A stretch of DNA of 64,000 nucleotides from Alphaproteobacteria bacterium (GTDB lineage: Bacteria > Pseudomonadota > Alphaproteobacteria > Rhizobiales > Xanthobacteraceae). Shown piece by piece: positions 39,253-61,614 of this stretch. Each line of letters opens with the position of its first letter. Position 1 is the stretch's first letter. The notes under the pieces are model-generated. The model was not told the DNA's origin. It saw nothing but the letters and a program-made list of their open reading frames with translations, and did no database searches. The stretch spans positions 124,001 to 188,000 of the forward strand of contig VBAH01000028.1 in assembly GCA_005884685.1 (NCBI GenBank). The letters are read 5' to 3'. The position numbers were made by a program, and so were the translations under genes.

Positions 39253-39291
39253 GCGGGCGTAGTTCAGTGGTAGAACGTCAGCTTCCCAAGC
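39253..39291 (+). pseudogene. 5' half of host tRNA-Gly(CCC), attL
   Basis: Acceptor strand GCGGGCG (39253-39259), a D arm (GTTC/GAAC) and the 5' anticodon strand TCAGC with loop TTCCCAA are present, then the sequence diverges after 'CAGCTTCCCAAGC' (39279-39291). Joined to 59998-60033 it gives a perfect cloverleaf, with acceptor GCGGGCG/CGCCCGC and anticodon stem TCAGC/GCTGA. The gene was cut in the anticodon arm by the element. Confidence 0.92.
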
Positions 39292-39356
39292 ACTAGAGAA
39301 GCCAAGTAAGGTCAATGCTATAAGGGAATTTAGTCACCGTTTTTACACCGTGATAT

Positions 39357-39430
39357 GCGGGTGTAGCTCAATGGCAGAGCAGGAGCTTCCCAAGCTCACG
39401 ACGAGGGTTCGATTCCCTTCACCCGCTCCA
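39357..39430 (+). tRNA. tRNA-Gly (anticodon CCC), carried by the element
   Basis: A full cloverleaf with acceptor GCGGGTG/CACCCGC, D stem GCTC/GAGC, anticodon loop TTCCCAA (anticodon CCC), T loop TTCGATT and encoded CCA. The anticodon stem has one outer mismatch. It decodes GGG, the same codon as the split host gene, from which it differs in D arm, T arm and stem bases. It lies 65 bp after the broken 5' half and in the same direction, so it could be read from the old host promoter. Confidence 0.93.
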
Positions 39431-39472
39431 TCCATCCAGGAACGCTTCTGCTATCGCGGTGACATCGTTCAA

Positions 39473-39610
39473 GTGAAGTCGGGTGGACCAGAGATGTTCG
39501 TTGTGGCCCTGGAAGGTGAGTGCATCGTCTGCGAGTGGGTCGAGTGCGACGTCATCATCGAGCGTGAGACGTTCAAGGCCGAAGACCTCGTTCTTATGCG
39601 GAGAGCATAG
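39473..39610 (+). CDS. DUF2158 (YodC-like) small protein
   Basis: The reading frame contains 'RGDIVQVKSGGPEMFVV' and 'GECIVCEWVECDVIIERETFKAEDLVLM', which match the DUF2158/YodC pattern ('G-D-x-V-x-L-K-S-G-G-P-x-M', then 'C-x-W', then 'F....L'). Function is unknown. The start is uncertain: similarity begins near 39452, ahead of the GTG at 39473 used here, and the next ATG upstream lies inside the tRNA gene. The original start may have been lost or may be a rare codon. Confidence 0.55.
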   Translation: MKSGGPEMFVVALEGECIVCEWVECDVIIERETFKAEDLVLMRRA

Positions 39611-39614
39611 AGCG

Positions 39615-40100
39615 ATGGTGCTGAAGTTGGGCGACATCAATCAGCCCGAAGCCAACCTTTCCTGCGCACTTACGATGCTATGCGCGATCTCAGGCAGGAG
39701 CCCCGATGAGATGGGCTTGCTCATGCAGCAGGTGTGTGCGGACGACGGCAGACATGTAGAGCTGAGACGACCTGACTACGCTCCGGCGGACTGGTTAGAG
39801 GCTATCAAACGCCTAGGCGGGGTCATCGCCGGCACCAACGAGCATGGCAACAAGCCCTATGAGCAGCGGCCGACTATCGACCAATGGATCGCAAGCACCA
39901 CCGATACGGGCTTGATCGTCATCGTGACTGATGACGGAAAGGTCGGCGGAGAGGCCCATGTGTTCGCCATCGAGAACGGCAACATCGTAGACACCTACAC
40001 GGGCGGGAAGGTGATCAAGTTCACGGGCTCGCCTTTGGTCGCACAGCGCGTAGTCAAAGCATTCAAGATCGAGAACGCACCGGCGCCTATCAAGCAATGA
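39615..40100 (+). CDS. Hypothetical protein, possible papain-like fold
   Basis: The 161-residue protein begins 4 bp after the DUF2158 gene and is probably co-translated with it. It has 'NLSCALTMLCAISGRSPDEMGLLMQQ' near the N-terminus and 'EAHVFAIENGNIVDTYTGG' later; a Cys at the start of a helix with a later His and Asn/Asp resembles C39/papain-like peptidases, but I cannot confirm this. No signal peptide. Its end overlaps the convergent 40090-40662 gene by 11 bp. Confidence 0.55.
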   Translation: MVLKLGDINQPEANLSCALTMLCAISGRSPDEMGLLMQQVCADDGRHVELRRPDYAPADWLEAIKRLGGVIAGTNEHGNKPYEQRPTIDQWIASTTDTGLIVIVTDDGKVGGEAHVFAIENGNIVDTYTGGKVIKFTGSPLVAQRVVKAFKIENAPAPIKQ

Positions 40101-40662
40101 TCTGATCGTCATCGGCGAATGGCAAAAGTCGGCCAAGCTCTGTCGTGTATGACTGTATTTCATTCGCCATGTTGCCAAGTTCGGACCACAAAATATTGTC
40201 ATCGGTGTCAGACACGACGGTTGTCTGCTTCCACGGGCGGCCGATCTGCCGGATCACCTTGCCATCGCTCCATCCGAGCGCCGTATGCACCACCTCATTG
40301 CGCCTAAGCCCGAGCGACCGAACGCGCTCCCTTAGCGCCTCCCAATCTCGCCGGAGCTGCTGTAGGCGGGCATCTTGCCTAACCCGGCCGGCGACCGGCG
40401 CATTTTCAAAAGCACGCGTCACGCGAGTCAGTCGGCCATCCAGGTGCAGATATTTGTCCCAGTTCGCGCGCTCTGCTCGTAGCGCCGTCTGCCGATCGGG
40501 TTGCGTCGCCTGCGGATGGTTTTTGTCCCAGGCATACGCTGTGAGCTGCCATTCAAGATAAGAAACGGCCGCTTCCAGGCGCGCACACGCGTCAATGATC
40601 TGCCCCGCTCGGCGGTGCGCCGCGGCAATTTCATCTCCGCCTACCAATATCGATCGCGCCAT
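40090..40662 (-). CDS. Hypothetical protein with HEPN-like R-x4-H motif
   Basis: The 190-residue protein is mostly helical. It holds 'RRAGQIIDACARLEAAVSYLEWQLTAYAW' and 'LGLRRNEVVHTALGW', where Arg and His stand in the R-x4-H spacing of HEPN ribonucleases. HEPN proteins often act as toxins or defence nucleases, but no nucleotidyltransferase (MNT) antitoxin partner is next to it. ATG 40662 is chosen because GGAGGGGG precedes it; upstream ATG codons have no ribosome site. Confidence 0.55.
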   Translation of the reverse strand: MARSILVGGDEIAAAHRRAGQIIDACARLEAAVSYLEWQLTAYAWDKNHPQATQPDRQTALRAERANWDKYLHLDGRLTRVTRAFENAPVAGRVRQDARLQQLRRDWEALRERVRSLGLRRNEVVHTALGWSDGKVIRQIGRPWKQTTVVSDTDDNILWSELGNMANEIQSYTTELGRLLPFADDDQIIA

Positions 40663-40739
40663 AGAACCCCCTCCAATCCGCCTTATTTGTATCACGTTAG
40701 GCATGGAACTTTGTTCCAAATGGAGACATGGGGGGCGTA

Positions 40740-41378
40740 ATGAGTGGGTTCACTGACGAAATACGTTCATTCCTGTGCTCGCAGCGCATCCCCGACGATT
40801 GGGTCTGCGACGCTTCCATGGTGGGGCCCCGCCGCTATAAGCGAAAGATGGAAGCCGAGGGCAAGCTGTTCGCGATCGTTCGCGAGCCTTGTTACAACGG
40901 CCACTACATCCGCAGCCACAAAGGCCATTGTATGCAATGTGACACGTCGCGGATCGCATACGTGCTCCGGCATTACAAGGAAGCCTACGTGTATATCGCT
41001 GGCTCGCGGAGCCAACGCCTGTTGAAGATCGGATGGTCGGAAACGCCGTATGATCGCGCGGAGCATCTAAATTCCATCGGCTACGGTGCGATCTCCGACT
41101 GGGAGCTGCTGTACTACGGAAGCTATCCGGAAGCCGGCAAGGTCGAGCTGTCCTCGCACTCCCGGCTGTCCTGGCACATGACACCGCGCGGCTGGTTCCG
41201 CGAAGGCGTTCCACAAGACGCCCGCGAGATATTCAAATGCTCATATACGGAAGCGCGGGAAGCGATCCGGCGCGTTGCGGGCATGGAGGGCGAGGGTGAA
41301 TGGGAGGCCCACTGGGTCAAGCGCAAGTTGTACGAGCCGAAAGAGGAAAAGCGGGAAGCGCTTGCCGTTATTGCATAA
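40740..41378 (+). CDS. GIY-YIG-like nuclease domain protein (T5orf172 type)
   Basis: The 212-residue protein has an N-terminal Cys/His cluster ('CYNGHYIRSHKGHCMQCDTSR') that may bind zinc, then 'YVYIAGSRSQRLLKIGWSETPYDRAEHLNSIGYGAISDWELLYYG', the pattern of the T5orf172/Mug113 branch of GIY-YIG domains (Y-V-Y, K-I-G, R, L-N). 'GWFREGV' closes the domain. Such proteins occur in phages and islands; a DNA-cutting role is likely but unproven. ATG 40740 is used (GGGGGG ahead). Confidence 0.75.
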   Translation: MSGFTDEIRSFLCSQRIPDDWVCDASMVGPRRYKRKMEAEGKLFAIVREPCYNGHYIRSHKGHCMQCDTSRIAYVLRHYKEAYVYIAGSRSQRLLKIGWSETPYDRAEHLNSIGYGAISDWELLYYGSYPEAGKVELSSHSRLSWHMTPRGWFREGVPQDAREIFKCSYTEAREAIRRVAGMEGEGEWEAHWVKRKLYEPKEEKREALAVIA

Positions 41379-42144: not shown

Positions 42145-42849
<705 letters not shown>

Positions 42850-43689: not shown

Positions 43690-44322
43690 ATGAAAGCAGC
43701 CTCGGTGCAACCTCTTCGACCTACAGCTTCTGTCCGCCTAGGGGACATCGCGGAGGTGTTCGCGGGTATCGGCGTGTCACGCGAAGACACCCTTGAGCGC
43801 CCCGGCGAGAAGCTGCCCGTAATTGGCGTGCGCGATCTGCATGACGGCGCGGTGACCCCGCTCGCGGCCTTGGACGCGGTGGGCTTCCCCGATGTTTCTC
43901 GCGCAAAAACCTACGTCGTGCGCACTCACGACGTGCTCGTCACAGGCCGGGGGACAGTGCTGAAGTTTGGGCTTGTCGGCGATGAGACGGCCGGCGCGGT
44001 AGCCAGTGGCAATGTCATCGTCGTTCGCCCCGGCCCGAAGGCGACCGGCGGCGCGCTTTTCGGGATTCTATCGAGCGAGGTGTTTCGCCCAAAAATCGAA
44101 GTGTTGCGCAGGGGCGCGACTACGCTGTTGTCGTTGTCCCCGAAGGACCTGACCAAGCTCGAAATTGATTTGCCGCCGCTGGACGAGCAGCAGCGCATTG
44201 CCGCGTTTATTGGTGACGCACAGACCGCCTTTCGCACCGCCATCGAGGCCGCCGAAATCCGCCGCACGCTCGCACGCCGTTTAGTGGATGTGCGCCTTTT
44301 CGGCGGCAAACAGAAAAACTGA
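43690..44322 (+). CDS. Half-size HsdS-like specificity subunit
   Basis: The 210-residue protein looks like one target-recognition domain plus one conserved helix of type I specificity subunits: 'VRLGDIAEVFAGIGVSREDT', 'VIGVRDLHDGAVTPL', 'DVLVTGRGTVLKFGLV', 'GNVIVVRPG', and the C-terminal 'LTKLEIDLPPLDEQQRIAAFIGDAQTAFRTAIEAAEIRRTLARRL'. A normal HsdS has two such units. It is the first gene of the operon, 7 bp before hsdM, and could act as a dimer giving a second specificity. GC is higher than in the rest of the operon. Confidence 0.8.
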   Translation: MKAASVQPLRPTASVRLGDIAEVFAGIGVSREDTLERPGEKLPVIGVRDLHDGAVTPLAALDAVGFPDVSRAKTYVVRTHDVLVTGRGTVLKFGLVGDETAGAVASGNVIVVRPGPKATGGALFGILSSEVFRPKIEVLRRGATTLLSLSPKDLTKLEIDLPPLDEQQRIAAFIGDAQTAFRTAIEAAEIRRTLARRLVDVRLFGGKQKN

Positions 44323-44329
44323 GGAAAAC

Positions 44330-45856
44330 ATGGCCAAACTCACACGCTCTGAACTTGAAAACCACCTTTGGAAATCCGCCGACATTTTGCGGGGCTCCAT
44401 CGATAGCTCGGACTACAAGATTTACATCTTCGGCTTCCTATTCCTGAAGCGTCTTTCGGACCGCTTTGAGGAAGAGGCTCAGGAATGCATTCGCAAAGGT
44501 ATGTCAGCTGACATCGCCTACAATGACCCGGACGAACACGAATTTTTCCTGCCTGAAAGATCTCGCTGGACAGAACTCAAGAAACTAACGACCGGCATCG
44601 GCGACCAACTCAACAAGGCTTGCGCGGCGATCGAAGATGCCAACCCCTCGATAGAGGGGGTTCTCGCCAATATAGACTTCAATTCGGAATCGCGTCTTGG
44701 CGACGCCAAGAACCGAGAGGGCGTTCTTGCCAGATTGATCGACCATTTCTCGCGGCTGGATCTCACCAACGCGTCGTTGTCCGAGCCAGACATGTTGGGT
44801 CGTGCCTATGAATATCTCATCGACAAGTTTGCCGACGACGCTGGAAAGAAGGGTGGAGAGTTCTACACACCTCACCACGTGGTGCGCCTGATCGTCGAGC
44901 TGCTCGATCCTAAGCCGGGAATGCGTATCAGTGACCCCACCTGTGGATCAGGCGGCATGTTGATCCAGAGTGCAGACCACGTCGCGCAGCTTGAAGGAAA
45001 ACGGCTCGGTCAGCCGATCAACATCACCCTCCACGGACAAGAAAAGAACTTAGGCACATGGGCCATCGCCAAGATGAACCTCTTGCTACACGGACTGCGC
45101 GACGCACGGATTGAAAAAGGCGACACTATCCGCAATCCGCGGCTGCTTGATAGTGATGGCAACTTGATCCTTTACGATCGCGTAGTTGCCAATCCTCCAT
45201 TCTCGCTTGATGCCTGGGGAGCGGATGACGTGTCGGGCGAGAACGAAAAGAAAAGCTTCAACCGGTTTGTCTATGGAATTCCGCCAAAGAATATGGGGGA
45301 TCTTGCATTTGTTCAGCACATGGTGGCGACACTCAATACGAAGGGCATGTGTGGCGTAGTCATGCCGCATGGTGTGCTTTTTCGCGGCTCCGGAGATGGG
45401 CGCATCCGCGAGGGAATGCTGAAGGCGGATTTGTTCGAGGCCATTATTGGTCTGCCGGAAAATCTTTTCGCGGGTACTGGCATTCCCGCTACGGTCCTGA
45501 TCCTCAACAAAGCAAAGGCGCCCGCACGCAAGGGCAAAGTGTTGTTCATCAATGGTGCGAAGGAATTCGTGGAGCGACCCAAAAAGAATATCATGGACGA
45601 TAGCAACATTATGCGTACCGTCGACGCATTCCGTGCGTGGAAGGATGAAGATCGTTTTTGCCGCGTCGTTGACATTAAGGAGGTAGAGGAGAACGACTTC
45701 AACCTCAATATCTCTCGCTACATCGATACGTTGGAGCCTGAAAAGCCGATCAATGTGAAAGCCGAGCTCGAAAAGCTCTGGAAGGCAGAGCGGGTGCGGG
45801 ATGAGGCAGCCACACGCATGAACGCCCTTCTCAAGGAGATGGGCTATGTGGGATAA
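44330..45856 (+). CDS. hsdM: Type I restriction-modification methyltransferase HsdM
   Basis: The 508-residue N6-adenine methyltransferase has the HsdM N-terminal domain ('LENHLWKSADILRGSIDSSDYKIYIFGFLFLKRLSDRFEEE'), SAM motif 'DPTCGSGGMLIQSA' after 'GGEFYTPHHVVRLIVELL', and the catalytic motif 'VVANPPFSLDAWG' (N-P-P-F). The start at 44330 has GAGGAAA ahead of it. It overlaps the full-length hsdS by 11 bp. Confidence 0.96.
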   Translation: MAKLTRSELENHLWKSADILRGSIDSSDYKIYIFGFLFLKRLSDRFEEEAQECIRKGMSADIAYNDPDEHEFFLPERSRWTELKKLTTGIGDQLNKACAAIEDANPSIEGVLANIDFNSESRLGDAKNREGVLARLIDHFSRLDLTNASLSEPDMLGRAYEYLIDKFADDAGKKGGEFYTPHHVVRLIVELLDPKPGMRISDPTCGSGGMLIQSADHVAQLEGKRLGQPINITLHGQEKNLGTWAIAKMNLLLHGLRDARIEKGDTIRNPRLLDSDGNLILYDRVVANPPFSLDAWGADDVSGENEKKSFNRFVYGIPPKNMGDLAFVQHMVATLNTKGMCGVVMPHGVLFRGSGDGRIREGMLKADLFEAIIGLPENLFAGTGIPATVLILNKAKAPARKGKVLFINGAKEFVERPKKNIMDDSNIMRTVDAFRAWKDEDRFCRVVDIKEVEENDFNLNISRYIDTLEPEKPINVKAELEKLWKAERVRDEAATRMNALLKEMGYVG

Positions 45857-47156
45857 GCGGCCGGCCGACTGGGATGTGAAACGACTATCGGAAATAGCAA
45901 CCCGGATAGTAAGAAAGAATGATGGAGCTGGACATCCCGTCATGACGATTTCGGCAAAGCGTGGCTTCATGCTTCAGTCCGACAAATATAGTCGTGACAT
46001 GGCCGGGCAGAGCGCAGAACGCTATATCCTACTTAGAAAAGGTGAATTCGCATACAATAAGGGTAATTCTCAAACAGCACCTCAAGGCTGCATCTTTCGA
46101 CTAAATCAAGAAACGGCAATCATCCCGTTTGTTTACTACTGCTTTTCGATCGATAGAGATATCGATCCAGACTATGCAACGCATGCATTTCAGGGTGGAA
46201 TTTTAAATCGAGAACTTGCTCGCGCAATAAACTCCGGCGTCCGAAATGACGGCCTGCTAAACCTGCCGGCGGAAGACTTTTTTCGCTTGCAGTTGGCTGT
46301 CCCGCCCATCGCTGAACAGCGCGCCATCGCCGAGGTTATGGGCTCGTTGGAACAAACCATTGCTAAGACGAAGGCGTTTATTGAGACTATTGCCCAAACC
46401 AAGCACGCGACGATGCGCGAGCTACTCACGGTTGGTATCAGACGCGTCACAGTGCCGTTGAAGAGACTTCAAACTCGATGGGTTCTTGGGCGCATCGCCG
46501 AAGGCATCACGCATATCCCAATCGATTGGGAATTGGTGACCCTCACTAAGGTCGCCAAACTTGAGAGCGGGCATACGCCGAGTCGCGACAAGCCGAATTA
46601 TTGGGGGGGCGGCGATATCCCTTGGCTTTCACTTGCGGATACCGACGCGCTTGATGCTCTCGAAGTCAATAAAACGTCAGAATGCGTCACGGCCGAGGGA
46701 ATAGCGAAATCTTCTGCCCGAATTCTTCCCAAGGACACCGTAGTATTCTCACGTACGGCAACTGTAGGAAAGGCAACGCGTCTAAAGCGGCCGATGGCGA
46801 CTAGCCAGGACTTTGCAAATTGGGTTTGCGGTCCGACGCTACTTCCTGCCTACTTAGTGCAGGTCTTCCGCCATATGGGGCGCGAATGGGAGCGACTTCA
46901 AGAGGGGAGCACGCATCAAACGATCTACATGCCGGTATTCAAGAAGCTGCAAATACTTCGGCCTCCAAAAATCGAGCAGGAGAAGATTGCCGAAATTGGT
47001 GAAGCGTTTGACCGTCGTATCGCGAGCGAGCAGGATGCCTTGGCAACGCTGGTCCGAAATCGCGCCGCACTCGCCCAAGAGCTTCTCTCTGGTCGCCTTC
47101 GCCTACCCGATAGTGTGATTGCACGCCATCGCAACAAGCCGGGGAAGGCGGCATGA
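45846..47156 (+). CDS. hsdS: Type I restriction-modification specificity subunit HsdS
   Basis: The 436-residue protein has the two-domain layout: first domain from 'DWDVKRLSEIATRIVRKNDG' to 'LPAEDFFRLQLAVPPIAEQRAIAEVMGSLEQTIAKTKAFIETIAQTKHATMRELL', second from 'IDWELVTLTKVAKLESGHTPSRDKPNYWGGGDIPWLSLAD' to 'KIEQEKIAEIGEAFDRRIASEQDALATLVRNRAALAQELLSGRLRL'. Each ends with the conserved long helix that spaces the target domains. The recognised DNA sequence is not readable from this. Overlaps join it to hsdM (11 bp) and hsdR (ATGA). Confidence 0.94.
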   Translation: MWDKRPADWDVKRLSEIATRIVRKNDGAGHPVMTISAKRGFMLQSDKYSRDMAGQSAERYILLRKGEFAYNKGNSQTAPQGCIFRLNQETAIIPFVYYCFSIDRDIDPDYATHAFQGGILNRELARAINSGVRNDGLLNLPAEDFFRLQLAVPPIAEQRAIAEVMGSLEQTIAKTKAFIETIAQTKHATMRELLTVGIRRVTVPLKRLQTRWVLGRIAEGITHIPIDWELVTLTKVAKLESGHTPSRDKPNYWGGGDIPWLSLADTDALDALEVNKTSECVTAEGIAKSSARILPKDTVVFSRTATVGKATRLKRPMATSQDFANWVCGPTLLPAYLVQVFRHMGREWERLQEGSTHQTIYMPVFKKLQILRPPKIEQEKIAEIGEAFDRRIASEQDALATLVRNRAALAQELLSGRLRLPDSVIARHRNKPGKAA

Positions 47157-50122
47157 GCTCGGCCAACGATAAGCTTGAGTTGGAGTGGGCGGAGGAACCG
47201 GCCGCCGATCTTCTGCGAGTGCTGTTCGACTTTCAGACGTTGTCGGGAGAAGATGTGCGCCGTCTGCGTGAGGGCAACGCGACTGAACCGGTGCTAACAG
47301 TCCGACTCGCCGAATGTCTTGCGCGCCTCAATCCTTGGCTCGCTGATGATGGCGTGCGTCGTGCGGTAGCTGGCGTGACACGTATCGCAGCTGTCGATAT
47401 CATCGAGGCCAACGAAAACGCGCACACCTCGCTTTCGTATGGTGTCACCGTACCACACACTGAGAACGGCCGACGACAAGACCGCACCGTGCGATTTTTC
47501 AATTTTGACGATCCGTCGGCTAACGTATTTGAGTTCGCGCGGCAGGTTTCGATCAAGGGAGCGCGCCAGGAAATCATCCCGGACATTATCGTCTACGTGA
47601 ACGGGCTCCCACTTGCGGTTATTGAGTGTAAATCACCAGCACTCGCCGATCCGATCGGCGAAGCCATACGCCAGTTCCGCCGATATGAGGGGCGCGATGA
47701 GTTCTTGGGGCTTGGTGCGCCACGCCTGTTCGAGACCGCGCAATTCTCCATCGCCCTTGCGCGTGATGTGGCGAAATACGGCACGGCGCTAACCCCCGCG
47801 CGCCAATGGGCAGAATGGAAAGATCCTTACCCGCTGACCCTCGATCAACTGACCGCACAACTCGGGCGCACGCCCACAGGCCAAGATATCTTGCTTGCCG
47901 GACTTCTCGCACCTGCAAATTTGCTCGATCTGGTCCGCAATTTCGTGATGTTCGAAACGATCGACGGCCGACGCATGAAGAAGCTCGCTCGCTATCAGCA
48001 ATTCATCGCTGTTGGAAAAGCGATTGAACGTATTCGGACTGCAGTCAATCCGCAGCGCCGGGGCGGCGTTATCCATCACACCCAAGGCTCTGGAAAGTCT
48101 CTGACTATGGTGTTTTTGGCAACGAAGCTTCGCCGCTTGCCGGAGGCCGAAAACCCAACACTCGTCATAGTGACCGACCGTAATGATCTTGACGATCAGA
48201 TTACTGCTCAGTTCAAACGCTCCGGCTTCCCCAACCCAATTCAGGCCGAAAGCGGCGAAGCGCTACGAAAGGCTGTTGCCGGAGGCGCCGGAACAACAGT
48301 TTTGACGACGGTACATAAATTCCACAGTGCAGTGCCGAAGCGCGCCTCGATTATTACTGATGCTCGAAACGTATTTGTCATGGTGGACGAAGCGCACCGC
48401 ACGCAATACGGCGCTCTCGCGGCCCGGATGCGCGCTGGCCTGCCTAATGCTTGTATGCTTGCATTTACAGGTACACCCATCGACAAGAAGGATCGTAGCA
48501 CTCGCGAAGTATTCGGGGACTACCTGCACCGCTATTTGATTGATCAAGCGGTGAAGGACGGCGCGACGGTCCCCATCTTCTATGAGATGCGCGATGCGCG
48601 ATTGCGCATCGATGGACGCGACCTTGAGCGGGACATCCGGGCGGCCTTCCCGGAGCTGTCAGATAAAGAGATTGAGAAGCTGAAACGCGGGATGCGCCTT
48701 CAGGAAAAGCTTGCGGGCGCTAAGGTGCGTGTGGAAACAATTGCCAAGGACATCCTCGAACACTATCGGACGACGATCGAACCGAACGGCTTCAAGGCGC
48801 AGATCGTGACCGTGAGTCGCGATGTAGCGGTGACGTATATCGAAGCGCTGCGAGAGCTCGGCGCACCGGAATGTGCCCTGATTATGTCGGCATCGAACAA
48901 CGATAGCGCACGGCTACAAGCCCACCATTTATCGAAGCGCGAGCGGGATGATCGAATTTCGCGCTTCAAGAAGCCGGACGACCCGCTCAAGATTTTGGTT
49001 GTCTGCGATATGCTCCTGACTGGTTTCGATGCGCCGATTGAACAGGTGCTCTATTTGGATGCGCCGCTGCGCGAGCACACGCTCTTGCAGGCTATTGCCC
49101 GTGTGAACCGTACAGCAGATGGCAAGAGTTATGGGCTTGTCGTCGACTACTGGGGTGATAATCGGCGCATTACTGACGCGCTGGACCTTTTTTCAGAGGA
49201 GGATGGCGTATCCAACGCGCTGCGCCCTCTCTCCGAGAAGATCCAACTTCTCGAAAGCCGTCACCGTGCCGCCATGAGGCTGTTCGAAGGGATGGATCGC
49301 AAACAAGAAGCGCAATGTCTTGCGCTACTCGATCCTGATGACGTTCGAGCTAAATTCGAATTGGACTTTCTTCGCTTTGCGGAAGCGATGGATATGGTCT
49401 TGCCGGACCCCAAAGCCTTGGAAGAGCCCTACGTCTCCGATCTGAAGTGGCTGGCACGGCTACGTGTAACTGCGCGGCGAGCTCATTATCAAGAGCCGTT
49501 CGACCCGAAGGATTACGGTGCGAAGGTCGGCCAAATCATCACCAAGCATCTCTCCGCCGAAGGCGTTGAGCAACTTCTTGCACCCCGCGATATTCTTGAC
49601 CCGGCATTCAAGCAACATCTTGAAACGATGTCGTCAGCGGAAGCCAAGGCCGCAGAAATTGAGCACGCAATTCGTCATGAGATACACGTTCACCGCGACG
49701 AAAACCCGACTGCTTATGCTTCACTGTGGGAGCAGCTAGAGAAAATTGTTAACGATCGGCGGCAGTCTCGCATCTCCGCCGCCAGTGCGCTTGAACGATT
49801 GCAGGAAATTGCGTTGCAGATTTCGAGTGCGCGCGCCGGCGGTAGCGGATCAGGGAAGGGACTGACAGGTACGGCGGGTGCCATTCTGCCCTTTATCGAC
49901 GATGCTGTTGCAATCGAGGCCCGTACCGGCGCTGCAACGGATGTTGCAAAGGCGCTGGAAAGTTATGCTGTGGTTATTGATTGGCAGCACAAAGAGGATG
50001 TGCAGCGCCAAATGCGTCGGGCGATAAAAGAGCGACTTCGAACGATCGGAATGGATGCAGCAAAAATTGAAGCGGTCACCGCTAAAGTTATGGATGTGGC
50101 ACGCGCGAGACTAGCTCGATGA
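47153..50122 (+). CDS. hsdR: Type I restriction endonuclease HsdR
   Basis: The 989-residue motor/nuclease subunit has an N-terminal PD-(D/E)xK-type nuclease ('IIPDIIVYVNGLPLAVIECKSPALADPIGEAI'), then a superfamily 2 translocase with Walker A 'HHTQGSGKSLTM', DEAH box 'VDEAHRTQYG', motif III 'AFTGTPI' and 'LLTGFDAPIEQVLYLDAPLREHTLLQAIARVNRT'. It cuts unmodified DNA together with HsdM and HsdS. The gene overlaps both neighbours by 4 bp. Confidence 0.96.
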   Translation: MSSANDKLELEWAEEPAADLLRVLFDFQTLSGEDVRRLREGNATEPVLTVRLAECLARLNPWLADDGVRRAVAGVTRIAAVDIIEANENAHTSLSYGVTVPHTENGRRQDRTVRFFNFDDPSANVFEFARQVSIKGARQEIIPDIIVYVNGLPLAVIECKSPALADPIGEAIRQFRRYEGRDEFLGLGAPRLFETAQFSIALARDVAKYGTALTPARQWAEWKDPYPLTLDQLTAQLGRTPTGQDILLAGLLAPANLLDLVRNFVMFETIDGRRMKKLARYQQFIAVGKAIERIRTAVNPQRRGGVIHHTQGSGKSLTMVFLATKLRRLPEAENPTLVIVTDRNDLDDQITAQFKRSGFPNPIQAESGEALRKAVAGGAGTTVLTTVHKFHSAVPKRASIITDARNVFVMVDEAHRTQYGALAARMRAGLPNACMLAFTGTPIDKKDRSTREVFGDYLHRYLIDQAVKDGATVPIFYEMRDARLRIDGRDLERDIRAAFPELSDKEIEKLKRGMRLQEKLAGAKVRVETIAKDILEHYRTTIEPNGFKAQIVTVSRDVAVTYIEALRELGAPECALIMSASNNDSARLQAHHLSKRERDDRISRFKKPDDPLKILVVCDMLLTGFDAPIEQVLYLDAPLREHTLLQAIARVNRTADGKSYGLVVDYWGDNRRITDALDLFSEEDGVSNALRPLSEKIQLLESRHRAAMRLFEGMDRKQEAQCLALLDPDDVRAKFELDFLRFAEAMDMVLPDPKALEEPYVSDLKWLARLRVTARRAHYQEPFDPKDYGAKVGQIITKHLSAEGVEQLLAPRDILDPAFKQHLETMSSAEAKAAEIEHAIRHEIHVHRDENPTAYASLWEQLEKIVNDRRQSRISAASALERLQEIALQISSARAGGSGSGKGLTGTAGAILPFIDDAVAIEARTGAATDVAKALESYAVVIDWQHKEDVQRQMRRAIKERLRTIGMDAAKIEAVTAKVMDVARARLAR

Positions 50123-51882: not shown

Positions 51883-51942
51883 GGTACGATTTGGAAACCG
51901 CCGATCATTGGGGTCGCGCGGCATGCACAAAGGAGGCCAGCA

Positions 51943-52201: not shown

Positions 52202-52576
52202 TCAATCTTTTCCGATAAGGAACTCGTCCTTGGTGCGTCCCGCCTCGATCAGCGTTTTGAGCCATTGTGGTGCATGTCCCTTACCTCCCCAGGTTTCCTC
52301 TGGGTTGGCAGGATTGCGATATTTCGGCTTCATTTCGCGCTTCTTCTTTTGTGTCGGTGGTGCCCGCTCAGTTGAGTTGTCACGAAAGCCGAACAGCGCC
52401 CCGGCACTTACTCCGAGTGACGAAGCAAGCGCATTGAAACGAGACACGAAGCCGTCAAGCTCGTTGTTGCCGCGGCGTTTGATTGCCGTGTCGATTTCGA
52501 CCTTCTTTTCAAGCAGTACATCGAAGGGGAGATTGTCGTATTGAGAGGTAGGCTTAGACTTTCCGAACAGCGCCAT
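52202..52576 (-). CDS. H-NS-family DNA-binding protein
   Basis: The 124-residue protein has an N-terminal helical oligomer region ('LPFDVLLEKKVEIDTAIKRRGNNELDGFVSRFNALASSLG'), a basic linker ('PPTQKKKREMK') and the H-NS DNA-binding motif 'PKYRNPANPEETWGGKGHAPQWLKTLIEAG' (Y-R-N-P, T-W-x-G-x-G-x2-P-x-W-L). H-NS-like proteins bind AT-rich foreign DNA and silence it. It is the last gene of the transfer-type operon and overlaps the Replic_Relax gene by 23 bp. It may silence the element itself. Confidence 0.85.
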   Translation of the reverse strand: MALFGKSKPTSQYDNLPFDVLLEKKVEIDTAIKRRGNNELDGFVSRFNALASSLGVSAGALFGFRDNSTERAPPTQKKKREMKPKYRNPANPEETWGGKGHAPQWLKTLIEAGRTKDEFLIGKD

Positions 52577-53438
52577 TGGGAGGCTCCTTCAGGGTGAACG
52601 CGGCTTCGCCGCTGACTTCCCACGGCCGCTCAAGCAAGCAGGTCGTCGGGAATGGACACCAGTCGGGCATCGACTGGAAGAGGACGTAGCGAGGAGGTTC
52701 CAGCTCGATCATAGAGCGCATGCGAATGGGATCGGTGGTTACGACCAGGAAGAGCGCATGCGTGAACCCGAGTTGGCGAAACAGCTTCTTTTCCGAGATC
52801 GTCCGAATCTGATCGAACATGCTCTCGATCGTCTTGCGTCGGATTGAGAGTTTGGAAGTAAGGGGCTCCGTGCCCCGATCCGCCTCTATGAAGAGGTAGC
52901 GATATCGGTCGTTGCCATAGTCGATGATGATGCAATCATCCGGCTCGTAGTCTTCGGCGGAGGAGAGTTCGAGAAAGACTGTCCTGCGCTTATTAAGCTC
53001 GTCTCGGTGGCGCGGGTCGAGCCTCGGGTTGCCGAGAATGTCCTTCCAGTGGATGAGGCGATACCCGTGCTCGCGGCTTCCAAGCTCCAGCGAAGCGCGG
53101 ATGATATTGATAAGAAGGTTGTGGTCGTCATATCTCTGGCGCCGCTTGCCGTTGCGAGCATAGACTGCATGGCGCTGATGCAGCCCGCTTCCGGAAATCT
53201 GACCGTCGGGCAGAACGAGGAGCTTGTTCGGCTCCTTCATCATGCGTCGGCACAAGCGGCCGAAATAGTTCTCGTTGAGCTTTCCGGGATGAAGCGCGTG
53301 GAGCCAAGGCCAGGGCAGGTAATCGTAGCGATCGAAGAGAGCGAGGAGATCGGTATGATGCGAGGTCAAGGCTTCCAGTGGAAGCGGAACGTCCGTCTTC
53401 GTCGTGAGCCTAAATTTTCTCGCTTTCGCTTTCGCCAT
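52554..53438 (-). CDS. Replication-relaxation (Replic_Relax) family protein
   Basis: The 294-residue protein starts with a winged-helix part ('LTSHHTDLLALFDRYDYLPWPWLHALHPGKLNENYFGRLCRRMMKEPNKLLVLPDGQ'), as in Replic_Relax proteins, which are linked to plasmid relaxation and element mobilisation, and continues with an alpha/beta part that contains acidic 'DDCIIIDYGNDRYRYLFIEADRGTEPL' resembling a nuclease-like core (D...E-x-D). 'FTHALFLVVTTDPIRMRSMIEL' follows. It lies downstream of the two VirD4-like ATPases. If the core is active it could nick DNA; that is inference. Confidence 0.78.
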   Translation of the reverse strand: MAKAKARKFRLTTKTDVPLPLEALTSHHTDLLALFDRYDYLPWPWLHALHPGKLNENYFGRLCRRMMKEPNKLLVLPDGQISGSGLHQRHAVYARNGKRRQRYDDHNLLINIIRASLELGSREHGYRLIHWKDILGNPRLDPRHRDELNKRRTVFLELSSAEDYEPDDCIIIDYGNDRYRYLFIEADRGTEPLTSKLSIRRKTIESMFDQIRTISEKKLFRQLGFTHALFLVVTTDPIRMRSMIELEPPRYVLFQSMPDWCPFPTTCLLERPWEVSGEAAFTLKEPPNGAVRKV

Positions 53439-53540: not shown

Positions 53541-55523
53541 CTACCACTTTTCCGCAAAGTCGTCGGGATTATGCGGCTTGCGCGTATCGGGTTCGGGTGT
53601 ACGCTGTCGTGATAAACCGCCTTCAGACCCCGAAGGCGGTTTTTTCTTTGGTGCGAGAAATGGTGCTGCAACGCCTGACGCGTCAGTGGCAAGCTTCGAA
53701 TAACTCTCCGGAATGGAAGGTGGCTGATTTTGCTTCTTCGGCAAGTTCTCAAGAATTCCGTACGGCACTGTGACCCTGATCGCATGCGGCGTGACGTTCT
53801 GCACGTAGCACGCCCAGTCCGCACTCTCTCGCTCTCTCGCCTTCATGCTACGAATGAAGTCGGGCGATGTATGCATCTCGCGACTTAACACAACCGCGTC
53901 ATTGTGAGAGACGGGGCCGACGAAACGAATCGCAGTCGCGCCGAGCACGGCCGCTTTCACCTCGTCGCCTATCTGGTGCCAGGTTTGGGTCGCCGCCACG
54001 AACGAACAGCCGTATTTGCGCAGCTCGACCAAAATGTCATTGATGGTTTTCGAGTTGAGAACCGTATGAGCTTCGTCCACGAGCATGATGCAGAGATGCC
54101 GTTCATGGGGCAGCAGCCGTTCCCGGCGAAGTCCGGCCGCGAAGTATTGCGTGATGATGTACTGAAGGAAAACTTCCATCCCGAACTTGCCGAGGCTGTT
54201 CACGCCGCCTTTCACCAGTACGACCTTCCTATCCCGAATAGCCGCGTCGGCGTCGAAGCTGTTGTGACGCGCGCCGAACATCTTTCGGAACGTATCGGAG
54301 GCTAGCGCACCGAGGAGGCGCCAATTGATGGCTTGCTTCGTCTCGCTCATGTCAGAAAACCACACCGTCTCGAAAAAGAGTTGATCAGTGCTGTCGAGCG
54401 CGGCGATCGCGTCGGCGTACGCGGATTGGCGGATGCTTTTTGCCTTCTCGCCGACGATGTGCGCGAGCGTTTGTATCGACGGATTTTCGACCTTGCGCAG
54501 GAGCTTCAGGAGATAGGGGACGATGTTCCGCTGCTTGTCGGAAAGCCCGCCGGCGAGAGCCGACATTAAATATTCAAACGTCTGAAGTGTCTGCGCTTCG
54601 GTCGAGGTGCCGAAGTCGAGGAAATTTAGCGGAGGCGGGTTCGTGTCCGGGTCTAACACGACAAGGCGCTCCGCCGGAACGCGTTCCTTCGCGACATGGA
54701 AGAGGTCGCCATGCGGGTCGAGCAGGAACATGCCGGGACTATCCGGGGCCTCCAACATCTCGCGGAACAACGAGCCGAGAAGCATCGTCTTGCCGTGGTT
54801 CGGAGGCGCTAGGATGATCGCATGAGATGCCCACGTCTTCCTCGGGATGACGAACGGCACCTCTAGACAAAGCAAATTGGCAAACGGCGTGCCGCCTAGA
54901 TATTCCTGGATGAGCTGTGCGATCGGCATCTTCGCTTCGTGCGCCCACGTGAGCGGCTTTCCTTCATAGGTGCTCGGATCGTAGCCAGACGCTCGGATAG
55001 TGTTCTCGCGGAGGGTCTCGACCAGATACTCGAAGATGTAGATGCTTCCATGCTTCGCCTGCGCAAATGCCGTGAGCATCATGATGAGGTCCGGTACATT
55101 TTCGATCAGCTCGTACAGCGGCACGCGCATCGTGCCTACCTGCTCTTCGAAAACAGACTGCGGTAGGCGCCTATAGAGTTCTCGAAACAGCATCGCAGCG
55201 CGGTAGATGCCCTGCTTCGGCCAGTCGGAGGAGGTGAACGCGACTTGGAGGCGCTTCAGGTGGTCCGCATCCTCTTCATCGGGCGGGCCGAGGAAAAACA
55301 CGTTGGCCTGGCGCAAGACGGTGAAGACTGCCTTGCCAAGCTCTGTCGCTATCTGATGCGGAAATCGATCTTCATCGATCTGCTGCATGATGTCGGGCAG
55401 CGCGGCGCGGCCGTCCGCATAGATGCGATACGGATATTTCTCATAGAGCTTCCTGACGTGCGCGAGGTGGGCCGTGAGGTCGTGGGACGGATGGTCGGGA
55501 AGTCCTGTGCTAGGCGGCTTCAT
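53541..55523 (-). CDS. VirD4/TraG-like ATPase 1 (coupling-protein type)
   Basis: The 660-residue protein is a FtsK/HerA-TraG-type P-loop ATPase: Walker A in 'ILAPPNHGKTMLLGSLFREML', 'PGMFLLDPHGDLFHVAKERV', Walker B 'LCIMLVDEAHTVLNSKTINDILVELRKYGCSFVAATQTWHQIGDEV'. Residues about 1-230 are a separate N-terminal domain without clear membrane spans. Related proteins push DNA toward conjugation channels. Note the 'NHGKT' form of the P loop. It overlaps the TPR gene upstream by 4 bp. Confidence 0.85.
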   Translation of the reverse strand: MKPPSTGLPDHPSHDLTAHLAHVRKLYEKYPYRIYADGRAALPDIMQQIDEDRFPHQIATELGKAVFTVLRQANVFFLGPPDEEDADHLKRLQVAFTSSDWPKQGIYRAAMLFRELYRRLPQSVFEEQVGTMRVPLYELIENVPDLIMMLTAFAQAKHGSIYIFEYLVETLRENTIRASGYDPSTYEGKPLTWAHEAKMPIAQLIQEYLGGTPFANLLCLEVPFVIPRKTWASHAIILAPPNHGKTMLLGSLFREMLEAPDSPGMFLLDPHGDLFHVAKERVPAERLVVLDPDTNPPPLNFLDFGTSTEAQTLQTFEYLMSALAGGLSDKQRNIVPYLLKLLRKVENPSIQTLAHIVGEKAKSIRQSAYADAIAALDSTDQLFFETVWFSDMSETKQAINWRLLGALASDTFRKMFGARHNSFDADAAIRDRKVVLVKGGVNSLGKFGMEVFLQYIITQYFAAGLRRERLLPHERHLCIMLVDEAHTVLNSKTINDILVELRKYGCSFVAATQTWHQIGDEVKAAVLGATAIRFVGPVSHNDAVVLSREMHTSPDFIRSMKARERESADWACYVQNVTPHAIRVTVPYGILENLPKKQNQPPSIPESYSKLATDASGVAAPFLAPKKKPPSGSEGGLSRQRTPEPDTRKPHNPDDFAEKW

Positions 55524-56485: not shown

Positions 56486-57715
56486 TTATCGGGTTGACGG
56501 CGAGAGGCGAGCGCTACGCTTGCCCGTGCGGCCGAACTGTCTGCGGCTCTGCGCGATTACTCGACTTGCAGTGCCGCGAGCGGCAGTGAACGGCTCAACA
56601 CTATGGTCGGTCGTCTCGCCTTGGTAGTGGTAAAAGCCCTGAAAAGGTTTAAGCCTGCGCAGACGCTGTTCAGGTGCGATAAAGCGGCTGCCCGTGCCAT
56701 GCGAAAGCTCGTCTGGCTCAAGGTCGAGCTGCCGCGCGATCTTGGGCGCGTCGTCCGCACCCACTTGAAACGAAATGAGGGTGCCGACGTTGCCGAAGAT
56801 GGCGTCTTGCACGGACTCAGGAAGCTGCGCCGTGTATTGGTTCAGTAATGTCAGCCAGAGGGCGAACTTGCGCGCCTCCGAAAGCACGGGGATGAAAGCG
56901 TGAGTGATGAACGTCTGCGCCTCGTCTATGTACATCGGGAAAGGCGCGATCTCATGTGCGGGACGCGACATCGCGGCATGGAAGAACGAGCCGATGAGCA
57001 ACGCACCGAAGGCATCGGCCGCGTTCTCTCCAATCGTCATTTTCGCGAGGTTGACCAGAACGATGCGGTTCCTCTTGATGCAGTCCGCGGGGTTCAAGGA
57101 AGGCTGTTCGCACTGAAGGATCGGACGCAAGTATTCATTATCTGTGAGCTGGCCGATGCGATTGATGATGGCGCTAGGCGCCTCTTCTTTCTCCCTCGCG
57201 CTTTTGGTGGGATATTCTTCAGTCCAAAATTGCAAAAGAGCTTCGTCAGTGACTTTCTTTAATTTGCCATCTCTAAAAGGCTTATTCGTTAGAATATCTT
57301 GCACCATAGTCAGGTCTGAGCCCTGCAGATGCATGAGAAGCGCAAGCGTCTTTGCGGTATAGCGCGACATGCGCTCTGACCATCCGCTGTCGATCCACTT
57401 ATCTTTGAAAATCGAAGTGAGCTTTTCTGCTTCGAGGTTGGGGAGGTCTCTATGGGTCACTGGGTTGAATGTGATCGGATGCTCGCGGTCGAGGACATTG
57501 AAATACAGCACGTCATTAATGCGCCTCTTCGGTATGGCATCAAGAAGCTCTAAAACATCCTGGCCGTGCGGGTCTACGTACGCAAGGCCGCGGCCGGCTT
57601 CTATATCGGAGAGTGCTTGATGCTTGGCTTCGGTGCTCTTGCCGCTGCCGGTGACGCCGCAGATGTAGGTGTGCCTAGCTCGTTGCGCTTCGGTTTGCAT
57701 AAGCTCATTCCGCAT
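56486..57715 (-). CDS. VirD4/TraG-like ATPase 2 (coupling-protein type)
   Basis: The 409-residue protein is a second P-loop ATPase: Walker A 'ICGVTGSGKSTEAKHQ' only about 20 residues from the start, 'GLAYVDPHGQDVLELLDAIP', 'FNVLDREHPITFNPV', Walker B 'FPMYIDEAQTFITHAFIPVLSEARKFALWLTLLNQYTAQLPESVQDAIFGNVGTLISFQVGADDAPKIARQL'. It has no membrane or N-terminal domain, unlike classical VirD4. It is the first gene of the six-gene minus-strand operon and follows a repeat-rich region. The two ATPases differ enough not to be recent copies. Confidence 0.85.
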   Translation of the reverse strand: MRNELMQTEAQRARHTYICGVTGSGKSTEAKHQALSDIEAGRGLAYVDPHGQDVLELLDAIPKRRINDVLYFNVLDREHPITFNPVTHRDLPNLEAEKLTSIFKDKWIDSGWSERMSRYTAKTLALLMHLQGSDLTMVQDILTNKPFRDGKLKKVTDEALLQFWTEEYPTKSAREKEEAPSAIINRIGQLTDNEYLRPILQCEQPSLNPADCIKRNRIVLVNLAKMTIGENAADAFGALLIGSFFHAAMSRPAHEIAPFPMYIDEAQTFITHAFIPVLSEARKFALWLTLLNQYTAQLPESVQDAIFGNVGTLISFQVGADDAPKIARQLDLEPDELSHGTGSRFIAPEQRLRRLKPFQGFYHYQGETTDHSVEPFTAARGTASRVIAQSRRQFGRTGKRSARLSPSTR

Positions 57716-57718
57716 CAC

Positions 57719-58080
57719 GCGCCGAACGACATTTCAGAACATCGCCGATCATGAAATCTCATTCTTCACCCCGCATTTCGCTGTGAAGTGCGGCTGCAAA
57801 GGCCGCGCATCTGGTGAGACTGCGGTGGGGCATGATGCGGAATGAGATCACGCATCTAGTGGAATTGTATCAGTGAAAATCTCGACACTGTAGCGAGCAG
57901 CGCGACCCAAAGCCTGAACCCCCGAGCGCGCCCGTTCTCTATTGTCCATGATTAACGGACACGGGCGCGCTCGGGGGCGACGCAATCGCATCGCGTTCAT
58001 AAAGGGCTAGTCGAGGCTTTGGGTCGCGCTGCGAGCGACGACGCTTCGCATTGAATTTTCAGAGGAAATCAGGAACTGGG
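57719..58080. other. Repeat-rich gene-free region, candidate oriT or origin
   Basis: Nested perfect inverted repeats stand out: 19-bp arms at 57897-57915 and 58014-58032, and inside them 17-bp arms at 57919-57935 and 57961-57977. Further left, a 13-bp inverted repeat (57704-57716 with 57834-57846), a related 'ATCTCATTC' at 57756-57764, and a direct repeat CGCATCT(G/A)GTG at 57806 and 57851. No gene lies here. The place, at the head of the operon with coupling-type ATPases, suggests an origin of transfer or replication; a structured RNA is an alternative. Confidence 0.5.
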
Positions 58081-58093
58081 ATAGCTATTCAGA

Positions 58094-58450
58094 ATGGCTA
58101 TACGAATGGCTAGGCTTAGGGACGCGGAGGAGGCAGGCATGATCCCGAGGCGCGCGCTGCAAACGGCAATCGACGGCGGCTATCAGCTGCAAACGCTGAC
58201 AGAACGCTGCATCATTCGCAAGGTTCACTCGCGCACTCCTGAATGGGACGACGTGCTGACGATGTTTCTTGAAGGATCGAAGCTGCCGATAGAGAGGCCG
58301 TGGAAGCGGATCGCGAAAGACGGTGAGTTCTGGTGCAGTCTCTGCCGCGCGCTCAATCGCCATGACGAGAAAGAGCTAAAGGCGGACTTCGAACGCCGCA
58401 TGAAGAAGGGGGAGAGGGGCTATGCGTTCTGGCGATGTGTGCTGCATTAA
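58094..58450 (+). CDS. Hypothetical protein, unknown
   Basis: The 118-residue basic protein has no recognised domain. It contains 'MARLRDAEEAGMIPRRALQTAIDGGYQLQTLTERCIIRKVHSR' and 'DGEFWCSLCRALNRHDEKELKADFERRMKKGERGYAFWRC', with a C-x2-C that might bind metal. It starts just after the inverted-repeat region and could act on it. A terminator follows at once. Confidence 0.55.
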   Translation: MAIRMARLRDAEEAGMIPRRALQTAIDGGYQLQTLTERCIIRKVHSRTPEWDDVLTMFLEGSKLPIERPWKRIAKDGEFWCSLCRALNRHDEKELKADFERRMKKGERGYAFWRCVLH

Positions 58451-58452
58451 AG

Positions 58453-58507
58453 AAAAAGCCGAGAAGTGAAACGAGGGTTGGACGCCTCGCTGCTTCTCGG
58501 CTCTTGC
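58453..58507. terminator. Bidirectional terminator between convergent genes
   Basis: A perfect 10-bp outer stem (58457-58466 with 58493-58502) encloses a second 5-bp stem (CGAGG/CCTCG). A-rich bases lie on the left. It separates the 58094 gene from the AlpA-like gene. Confidence 0.75.
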
Positions 58508-58509
58508 TC

Positions 58510-58722
58510 CTAGAAGGAGCGTTCGCGTCTCATCTCGATCTGGCGCTGAATCCACTCGTGCACTTCGCTCGCCACAAATGCCTTGCGTCCTCTTGGATGC
58601 TTTGAGAGAGCGACCCTCGCGGGAAATGCTTTGCTCTCAATGCGCCGTTCGATTTCGCTCTTGCTTAGGCTCGTCAGCTCGCACACTCGCTTCATCGGCA
58701 GCAGTTGTTCGATCGTTGCCAT
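58510..58722 (-). CDS. AlpA family regulator / excisionase-like protein
   Basis: The 70-residue protein fits the AlpA family: 'LLPMKRVCELTSLSKSEIERRIESKAFPARVALSKHPRGRKAFVASEVHEWIQRQIEMRRE', a winged-helix that binds DNA next to integrase genes. AlpA proteins activate the integrase or serve as excisionase. It lies 75 bp downstream of the integrase on the same strand. Confidence 0.88.
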   Translation of the reverse strand: MATIEQLLPMKRVCELTSLSKSEIERRIESKAFPARVALSKHPRGRKAFVASEVHEWIQRQIEMRRERSF

Positions 58723-58797
58723 TTCGCTTCAGCTCCGTTGAGGAGCCGTCGCGACGGCATCCAGGTTGGACTAAACCCGGCGACCGGACTGACGAGA

Positions 58798-59868
58798 TTA
58801 TGCGGCAACCCGCCGTTTTTCAAGGACTTCTGACCGCAGGTACCGGTGGTACTTCTTTAGAGCCTCCCGGATTTCCGGCAGGCGGTCGTAGCGGTCATAG
58901 ATGCGCTGGATAGGGGATCGGCTCCCGGCCGTATGCGCAAGCAGGGCCTCCGTGACGTCGATAGGCACCTTAAGATGGCGCATGGTCGAGGATACATACC
59001 GGCGGAAGTCATGGAGAGTGAAGTCATCGACGCCGCTGATCTCCTTGAGCCGCCCTGCCGGCTTGCCCCAAGAGATGAAGTAGGCCGGTATGCGCCGAAT
59101 ATCGGCCCGCATGTCGTCAGTGAGCGGGATGACGTGCTTCTCCCCGTTCTTCATCGCTGAGCCGGGCCATTCGACGGTGTCTTTCTTCACGTAGTCCTGA
59201 GAGAAGGCACCGAACTGTCCTTTGCGCTGGCCGGAGAGGATGAGCATGCGAACGATCGCGCCATACTCGCCGAGGCCTTCTGAACTCTGCCAGATGGCCT
59301 TGATCTCATCGTTCGTGAGAAGGCGGTCGCGTGCTGTCTCTCTGTAGGGCTTGGAGAGCTTCGAGATCGGATTAGAAGGCATGTGATCGTGCTTTTCGCA
59401 CCAAGCAAAGAAGGTGCGCAGCACGCCGAAAAGGTGGTTCGCCTCGCTAGGCGCCGTGCCCTTGTAGAGGTTCGTCACGTCCTGAGTGGCGATGGTGTCG
59501 AGGGCCTTGGATTTCAGCTTGCCGCAGTAACGGTCGATGAGGCGGATCGTCTGGTAGAGCGTATAGGGCCGATAGCCCTTCAGGTGGGTATCCTTGTAGA
59601 TCGCGTACGCCGCATCGAACGTGATCGAGCGCTTCGGCGCGTACTTGCCTTCGAGGATGATGCGGGCGCGGCTGCGCGCATCGGCGAGCGACATGACGGG
59701 ATAGTGGCCGATCGTGGTGACGCGGCCGGTGCGGATGGTGTAAAAGGTCTTGCGGCGTTTCCCGACACGAAGACAGAAGGCGGGAAGCATCGCGTCGCCG
59801 TAACTGCCTTCGGCGAGGTTATCGATCGTGCGGTCTGTGAAGCGGATTTTTCTCACCGGATTTCTCAC
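58798..59868 (-). CDS. int: Tyrosine site-specific recombinase (element integrase)
   Basis: The 356-residue protein has an N-terminal arm-binding domain ('KIRFTDRTIDNLAEGSYGDAMLPAFCLRVGKRRKTFYTI'), a core-binding domain ('TFDAAYAIYKDTHLKGYRPYTLYQTIRLIDRYCG') and the catalytic domain with Arg in 'LILSGQRKGQFGAF', H-x2-R in 'LHDFRRYVSS', His in 'LLAHTAGS' and the Tyr nucleophile in 'RIYDRYDRLPEIREAL'. It would move the element in and out of tRNA-Gly. It reads inward from the right end, 116 bp from attR. Confidence 0.94.
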   Translation of the reverse strand: MRNPVRKIRFTDRTIDNLAEGSYGDAMLPAFCLRVGKRRKTFYTIRTGRVTTIGHYPVMSLADARSRARIILEGKYAPKRSITFDAAYAIYKDTHLKGYRPYTLYQTIRLIDRYCGKLKSKALDTIATQDVTNLYKGTAPSEANHLFGVLRTFFAWCEKHDHMPSNPISKLSKPYRETARDRLLTNDEIKAIWQSSEGLGEYGAIVRMLILSGQRKGQFGAFSQDYVKKDTVEWPGSAMKNGEKHVIPLTDDMRADIRRIPAYFISWGKPAGRLKEISGVDDFTLHDFRRYVSSTMRHLKVPIDVTEALLAHTAGSRSPIQRIYDRYDRLPEIREALKKYHRYLRSEVLEKRRVAA

Positions 59869-59984
59869 TGCGTAGGTGAAAAACAGAGGTCAGCATGATC
59901 GAAAACTCTGAAGGACGCGGCGGGGAAAGTCAACAAGAACAGTGACTTCCGGGCAGTATGGGCAGTATGGGGAAGTGCGAGCTA

Positions 59985-60033
59985 CAGCTTCCCAAGCTGA
60001 ATGTCGTCGGTTCGATCCCGATCGCCCGCTCCA
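59985..60033 (+). pseudogene. 3' half of host tRNA-Gly(CCC), attR
   Basis: From the core CAGCTTCCCAAGC (59985-59997) the sequence continues with the anticodon 3' strand (GCTGA), the T arm with TTCGATC, acceptor strand CGCCCGC (60023-60029), T and CCA (60031-60033). It completes the 5' half at 39253-39291. A tandem GGGCAGTAT (59951 and 59960) just inside the end may be an integrase arm site. Confidence 0.92.
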
Positions 60034-61608: not shown

Positions 61609-61614
61609 CATTCA

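Follow-up and report, generated by a model that had tools for sequence, protein, structure and literature searches.

The usual rule for elements that integrate into tRNA genes, as given for Islander (PMC4383910), is that the tRNA gene is restored. A departure from this rule is tRNA-dependent lysogeny, described for mycobacteriophages such as Fionnbharth, LeBron, and Gaia (Guerrero-Bustamante and Hatfull 2024, PMC10865867), for which mutants proved that the common core is short, that the tRNA is not rebuilt, and that the phage tRNA is needed for lysogens; the discussion of that paper also names Lj965 of Lactobacillus johnsonii. Prophages of Sinorhizobium meliloti inactivate tRNA-Leu(UAG) and bring their own tRNA-Leu(UAG) (PMC11476347), and such a replacement was not seen in phiLM21-like prophages (PMC12429752). 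These and all later statements on published systems refer to the parts of the cited texts that we drew on. Here, we analyzed a window of 64,000 nt from an alphaproteobacterial genome (assembly GCA_005884685.1, contig VBAH01000028.1, positions 124,001 to 188,000), which contains an element of 20,706 bp (core to core, 39292-59997) inserted into a tRNA-Gly(CCC) gene. Our reading is that the element destroyed this host gene and that a whole tRNA-Gly(CCC) gene carried by it, here termed the cargo tRNA, stands in for the lost one; we assign this reading a probability of roughly 0.7.

A first-pass annotation of the window had proposed that the host tRNA-Gly(CCC) gene is cut at a 13-bp core. Both gene pieces and both copies of the core (CAGCTTCCCAAGC, at 39279-39291 and 59985-59997) were indeed found (Table 1), with the small correction that the two pieces overlap by the core, which corresponds to nt 27-39 of the gene. 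Joining the halves resulted in a 75-nt tRNA-Gly(CCC) that was folded by ARAGORN and that was identical over its 75 nt to the intact gene of the congeners G001 and G002 (G and L numbers are our own labels). Among the 61 genomes searched, the identical gene was also present in G034, G040, G048, G049, and G053. The identity to the genes of seven genomes, together with the ARAGORN fold, excludes chance as an explanation of the two halves. At the G002 locus, the intact gene (10612-10686) lies between both flanks that are shared with the window; on the left, window positions 24162-33340 match positions 1-9582 of that locus in pieces.

Table 1. Features of the element, its junctions, and the right flank (window coordinates).
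Feature	Position	Strand	Basis
Host tRNA-Gly(CCC) 5' half, nt 1-39, left attachment site (attL)	39253-39291	+	100% identity to nt 1-39 of congener genes
Attachment core, left copy, 13 bp, anticodon arm	39279-39291	+	Exact repeat of 59985-59997
Spacer from core to cargo tRNA, 65 bp; no half gene able to restore the host tRNA	39292-39356	+	Sequence, fold test
Complete cargo tRNA-Gly(CCC), 74 nt, CCA end	39357-39430	+	ARAGORN; Rfam RF00005, 65.9 bits; fold z -2.68
T5orf172-domain protein	40728-41378	+	Pfam PF10544
Type I restriction-modification cluster	43690-50122	+	Pfam, NCBIfam, PADLOC
HsdS-like	43690-44322	+	Restriction-modification cluster member
HsdM	44288-45856	+	Restriction-modification cluster member
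HsdS	45846-47156	+	Restriction-modification cluster member
HsdR	47153-50122	+	Restriction-modification cluster member
YgjP-like metallopeptidase, directly 3' of hsdR	50119-50847	+	Pfam PF01863
DUF7227 protein, matching phrog_2554 (virus family, function unknown)	51214-51930	-	Pfam, PHROGs
Possible replication-relaxation (mobilization) protein, weak	52554-53438	-	Pfam PF13814, E 0.0012, below cut-off
TraG/TraD-like ATPase, phrog_5156	53541-55523	-	Pfam matches below cut-off
TraG/HerA-like P-loop ATPase, phrog_5156	56486-57718	-	Pfam matches below cut-off
AlpA-family protein, possible excisionase	58510-58722	-	Pfam PF05930, E 5e-8
Tyrosine integrase with arm-binding domain; 116 bp between start codon and right core	58798-59868	-	PF13356 above and PF00589 below cut-off; phrog_1, E 7e-35; alignment
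Host tRNA-Gly(CCC) 3' part, nt 27-75, right attachment site (attR), including right core 59985-59997	59985-60033	+	100% identity to congener genes
Host right flank, syntenic with the congener flank beside the intact tRNA	60201-63985	+	Three pieces, 75-85% identity to G002 10772-14376

The attachment site of the host (attB) thus lies within a tRNA gene and shares a short common core with that of the element (attP), and no working tRNA is rebuilt at either end, which is the situation of tRNA-dependent integration. The claim that the left junction is not restored held up: the sequence behind the left core showed a fold z score of 0.09, compared to -3.40 for the joined host gene, and ARAGORN predicted no tRNA there other than the complete gene at 39357-39430. 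No rebuilt tRNA was predicted at the right junction either, so neither end has the gene-rebuilding attP fragment that defines a gene-restoring tRNA island. Instead, the element brings its own tRNA of the same isotype as the disrupted gene. This intact but diverged tRNA-Gly with the same anticodon was found where it had been annotated, 65 bp inside the left junction and in the same direction as the host half gene. It is 76% identical to the host gene and contains a 12/13 match to the core at 39383-39395. The closest relatives seen (73/74 identical) belong to a Sphingomonas metagenome-assembled genome (L243) and to two IMG/VR contigs (L264 and L270). Derivation of the cargo tRNA from the Gly(UCC) gene of the same genome (69/74 identical) was considered and dropped, since the cargo tRNA more closely resembles tRNA-Gly(CCC) genes from other lineages (72-73/74). 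Similarly, a role in codon supply was discarded because GGG is not enriched in the element (34 of 257 Gly codons in nine element open reading frames [ORFs] versus 13 of 91 in four host ORFs).

We propose that the element integrated via its tyrosine integrase, by recombination of a short attP core with the anticodon arm of the host Gly(CCC) gene, no other host gene of this kind having been found. Because the core is too short for rebuilding at either end, the host gene is destroyed, as the sequence shows. The cargo tRNA, located across the core from the integrase, would then replace the lost gene, which presumes that it is expressed and functions in translation. Provided that the element is mobile, its excised circle would have the order int, 116 bp, core, 65 bp, tRNA, with the site and the replacement tRNA traveling as one unit, and precise excision would remake the host gene.

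Two further cases were found at the same tRNA. The first is an IMG/VR contig of 46,593 bp (G415) that comprises a host 5' half (46224-46186), followed by an integrase and, at the other end, by a whole tRNA-Gly(CCC) (519-446) and a host 3' half (376-322). Both host gene pieces are identical to the native gene type of other family genomes. The cargo tRNA of G415 is 73/74 identical to that of our element, and the two integrases are 33% identical. The 3' match starts at nt 20, which lies 69 bp from the G415 cargo tRNA; nt 27, the position at which the core of our element starts, lies 76 bp from it. The second case is contig 56 of genome G144, on which a related integrase stands behind each of three 5' halves. 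Next comes a fourth 5' half (95765), which is separated by 368 bp from a whole tRNA-Gly(CCC) of another, unrelated type (96170-96244; stem GGTTTCCCAAACC, without the core), and a 3' half follows after 88 bp at 96333, with a further 3' half at 97824. Since the 368-bp gap is too short for an integrase, we take this arrangement as a relic whose replacement tRNA has remained. No other Gly(CCC) gene of G144 was listed at a threshold that also missed the cargo tRNA of G144 itself, and a divergent copy could escape. Overall, about 92 kb of this contig (L314 to L318) carry four 5' halves, of which three have related integrases, along with a single whole tRNA and two 3' halves, making up an array of densely packed serial insertions at one tRNA. 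The mirror image of our arrangement (spacing of 60-90 bp) was detected in 1 of 391 family genomes, namely, G144, and in one IMG/VR contig; other spacings (30-60 and 90-120 bp, and 80-110 bp on the attL side) yielded no further case in IMG/VR. The only IMG/VR contig at 30-60 bp (L345) proved to be an ordinary pair of neighboring tRNA genes, and the only one at 90-120 bp (L346) combines a 3' half with a complete tRNA-Gly(CCC) at a distance of about 40 kb (L300) and is probably an ordinary restoring element. Together with the proven precedent, the two additional cases make a whole second gene in place of a repaired one the best reading, as the first-pass annotation had suggested, although the principle turned out to have been published already.

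The orientation of the core sets our element apart from its relatives. Integration sites could be determined for eight related integrases (one each in G005, G025, and G415, two in G033, and three in G144). All eight are located directly after the 5' half of a tRNA-Gly(CCC) gene and read in the direction of the tRNA. For seven of them, G415 being the exception, another 5' half or a full gene was the next tRNA-Gly(CCC) piece detected downstream, as exemplified by G033 with the order 5' half, 5' half, 5' half, full gene; these seven elements thus seem to supply a new 5' half at their far end. The integrase of our element instead adjoins the host 3' half and is oriented away from that half, so that the core is inverted relative to int. 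Such an inverted site is plausible because the core is nearly palindromic (AGCTT-CCC-AAGCT). With an inverted core, the element would gain nothing from carrying a 5' half, and bringing a whole tRNA would be one solution.

The genome (G000) is a draft of 107 contigs with an estimated completeness of 100%, and the split tRNA lies on contig 3. It contains 44 tRNA genes above the Rfam cut-off, for 35 of which the anticodon was read; the other nine are 82-93 nt long and unlike Gly. Glycine was represented by a GCC gene, a UCC gene, and the cargo tRNA, which leaves the latter as the sole Gly(CCC) gene detected among the 44 tRNA genes of this draft. The first-pass annotation had considered that the intact tRNA could be the native one or that a second Gly(CCC) gene could make a rescue unnecessary. 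On the first point, the congeners were found to keep a gene of the split type intact at the locus; on the second, no such gene turned up, albeit in a draft genome.

Several observations weigh against our reading. No tRNA-Ile was found among the 35 anticodons read; the draft therefore lacks some tRNA genes, and a second Gly(CCC) gene is not strictly excluded. Furthermore, a Gly(UCC) gene is present, the tRNA of which may read GGG by wobble, so that a rescue by replacement may be unnecessary. The nearest integrases found are only 32-35% identical: among the 391 family genomes, integrase matches at E ≤ 1e-48 were confined to the genome itself, and the best matches elsewhere showed 29% (plasmid), 25% (phage record), and 21% (IMG/VR) identity. 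The arrangement at attL (spacing of 50-80 bp) is also rare, occurring in 1 of 391 family genomes, which is the analyzed one, and in no IMG/VR contig. Moreover, the DNA to the left of the 5' half (33348-39252) had no match at the locus of either congener, and the locus may therefore have been altered more than once. Finally, no sigma-70-like promoter was found in 39100-39500. The earlier suggestion that transcription of the cargo tRNA could start at the old host promoter received no support, given that the left DNA is not shared with the congeners and that a terminator-like hairpin (39222-39240) lies just before the half gene. No such hairpin was found between the half gene and the cargo tRNA. 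A TTG-N17-19-TAT motif is absent before both, which says little, as this motif precedes the intact gene in 8 of 27 relatives and is absent in the other 19.

The alternative that fares best is that the disruption was harmless, with Gly(UCC) reading GGG and the cargo tRNA being a passenger acquired from an earlier host by imprecise excision. The presence of Gly(UCC) and the closeness of the cargo tRNA to genes of other lineages fit this scenario, and glyU is dispensable in E. coli. In addition, only a 5' half, at a distance of about 5 kb from the end of its contig, and not an intact Gly(CCC) gene was detected in the relative G036 (96% complete), albeit in an assembly of 310 contigs. What makes a mere passenger unlikely in our view is that three separate elements with this target each have a whole tRNA of the same anticodon at 65-88 bp from the core and that the fold of the cargo tRNA is conserved. 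A Gly(CCC)-like gene is also kept in 34 of 36 same-family relatives (full-length match at least 83% identical to the host gene), with the anticodon read in only part of them; besides G036, the relative without such a match was G031, which is 82% complete.

A second alternative, to which we give little credence, is that the intact tRNA is a composite of two elements, an older one having given the 5' half and the promoter and a newer one having given the 3' half, so that the half gene at 39253 would be a relic. The apparent supply of new 5' halves by the elements of G005, G025, G033, and G144, in arrays that end in one full gene, would be in line with such a history, as would the copy of the core inside the cargo tRNA and the unshared left flank. 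However, the host 5' half and the distant 3' half taken together are identical to the congener gene, and the two halves of the cargo tRNA match each other and one natural gene at 73/74. The cargo tRNA has the pair G28:C42 where the host gene has C28:G42; its halves therefore belong to one gene and are no hybrid with the host halves. This pair is uncommon (2 of 117 genome matches listed and 4 of 62 viral matches, from one loose search pattern that fits many native Gly(CCC) genes too). Remnants of a related integrase were likewise not found in 30000-39252. A native origin of the intact gene, with the half genes arising from unrelated duplication or faulty assembly, can be dismissed, since it has nothing in its favor beyond the presence of three tRNA-like stretches, both congeners hold the split-type gene at the locus, and the element lies within a 315-kb contig with a G+C content of 52-61% between the junctions versus 66-71% on the right and 60-71% on the left.

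Judging from its predicted genes, the element would be a defense-carrying integrative, possibly mobilizable, element. Virion structure or terminase genes were not matched among 19 element ORFs searched with Pfam, 10 of which were also searched with PHROGs, and no type IV secretion system genes were found among the scanned element ORFs. Points against a nonviral nature are that both ATPases and the DUF7227 protein match virus families of unknown function and that G415 encodes a phrog_5156 protein with an additional weak match to a terminase; a viral or satellite origin may therefore apply instead. Some of the proteins encoded near the ends of G415 have counterparts in phage families (RecT, helicase, primase, methyltransferase, and the weak terminase). 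Between the TraG-like gene and the AlpA gene, nested inverted repeats were observed at 57890-58039 (57890-57915/58014-58039, 88% complementary; 57919-57935/57961-57977, 100%), which may serve in transfer, as its origin, or in replication. Repeated GTCGCGAC-type motifs occupy 42368-42727 inside a gene of unknown function (42145-42780), and over 413 aligned bases, this region shares 73% identity with a locus of G033 (L042) that belongs to the same tRNA hotspot.

Outside the element, the right flank (60201-63985) holds genes that we take to be a cytochrome P450-like gene and those following it. The approximately 5.9 kb at 33348-39252 on the left contain a Ku homolog and hypothetical genes. Further upstream lies a full gene at 31956-33176, presumably for a dCTP deaminase, and behind it the 3' end of another such gene (33188-33348), which matches the congeners; this looks as if a foreign copy replaced the native gene and left the native tail over. 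In G001, a second partial match to this 3' end lies beside a tRNA-Gly 3' fragment (L055, ~9259-9386). A 95-nt tRNA-Ala(CGC) predicted by ARAGORN at 13703-13797 is missing from the Rfam list and is probably a false positive.

That an invader bringing its own tRNA may destroy its target gene was known and has been proven in actinobacteriophages. New here are the apparently nonphage nature of the element, a tRNA built next to attP, and a core that is inverted relative to int. The element belongs to another phylum than those phages, and with the two further cases, one tRNA was hit in this way three separate times. Island finders that expect a rebuilt tRNA plus a fragment would misread such elements, which also suggest a possible route by which foreign tRNA genes replace those of the host. 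Tentatively, the attP core and a whole replacement tRNA might constitute a portable unit, with which an integrase would neither need to carry a matching tRNA half nor be bound to a fixed orientation. A target of about 13 bp would then suffice, hosts with a diverged tRNA-Gly(CCC) could be entered, and an inverted core would work. The replacement tRNA might be exchanged between unrelated elements, as an uncommon type of tRNA is present in both our element and G415 despite their dissimilar integrases, and it might outlive its element as the working gene of the host, for which the relic in G144 is the basis.

Compared to the described systems, our element shares with tRNA-dependent lysogeny (PMC10865867) a tyrosine integrase with an arm-binding domain, an attB in a tRNA gene, and a carried tRNA of the same isotype. 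The common core measures 8-17 bp in those phages and 13 bp in our element, and the tRNA is not rebuilt in either. In Gaia and Omega, attP is inverted with respect to the remainder of the genome, resembling the inversion of our core relative to int. In contrast, those systems are temperate actinobacteriophages, whereas no virion gene was recognized in our element, and a Gly(CCC) target is rebuilt in all five rows of Table 2 of that paper but not here. We found no report in the open-licence literature, in the parts that we drew on, of such a replacement at tRNA-Gly(CCC) by an element without virion genes. The S. meliloti case (PMC11476347) has an alphaproteobacterial host in common with ours and likewise a replacement isoacceptor that is closer to genes of unrelated Alphaproteobacteria; it differs in involving intact prophages similar to Mesorhizobium phage Lo5R7ANS and another tRNA. 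With ordinary tRNA-targeting islands (PMC4383910), our element shares the tyrosine integrase, the crossover in the anticodon arm, and a displaced tRNA fragment at one end, but these islands restore the gene from the attP fragment, whereas our element restores neither junction. The position of the tRNA differs as well: it overlaps gene 37 in Fionnbharth and lies downstream of int in Gaia (PMC10865867), whereas in our element, it is placed 65 bp from the core.

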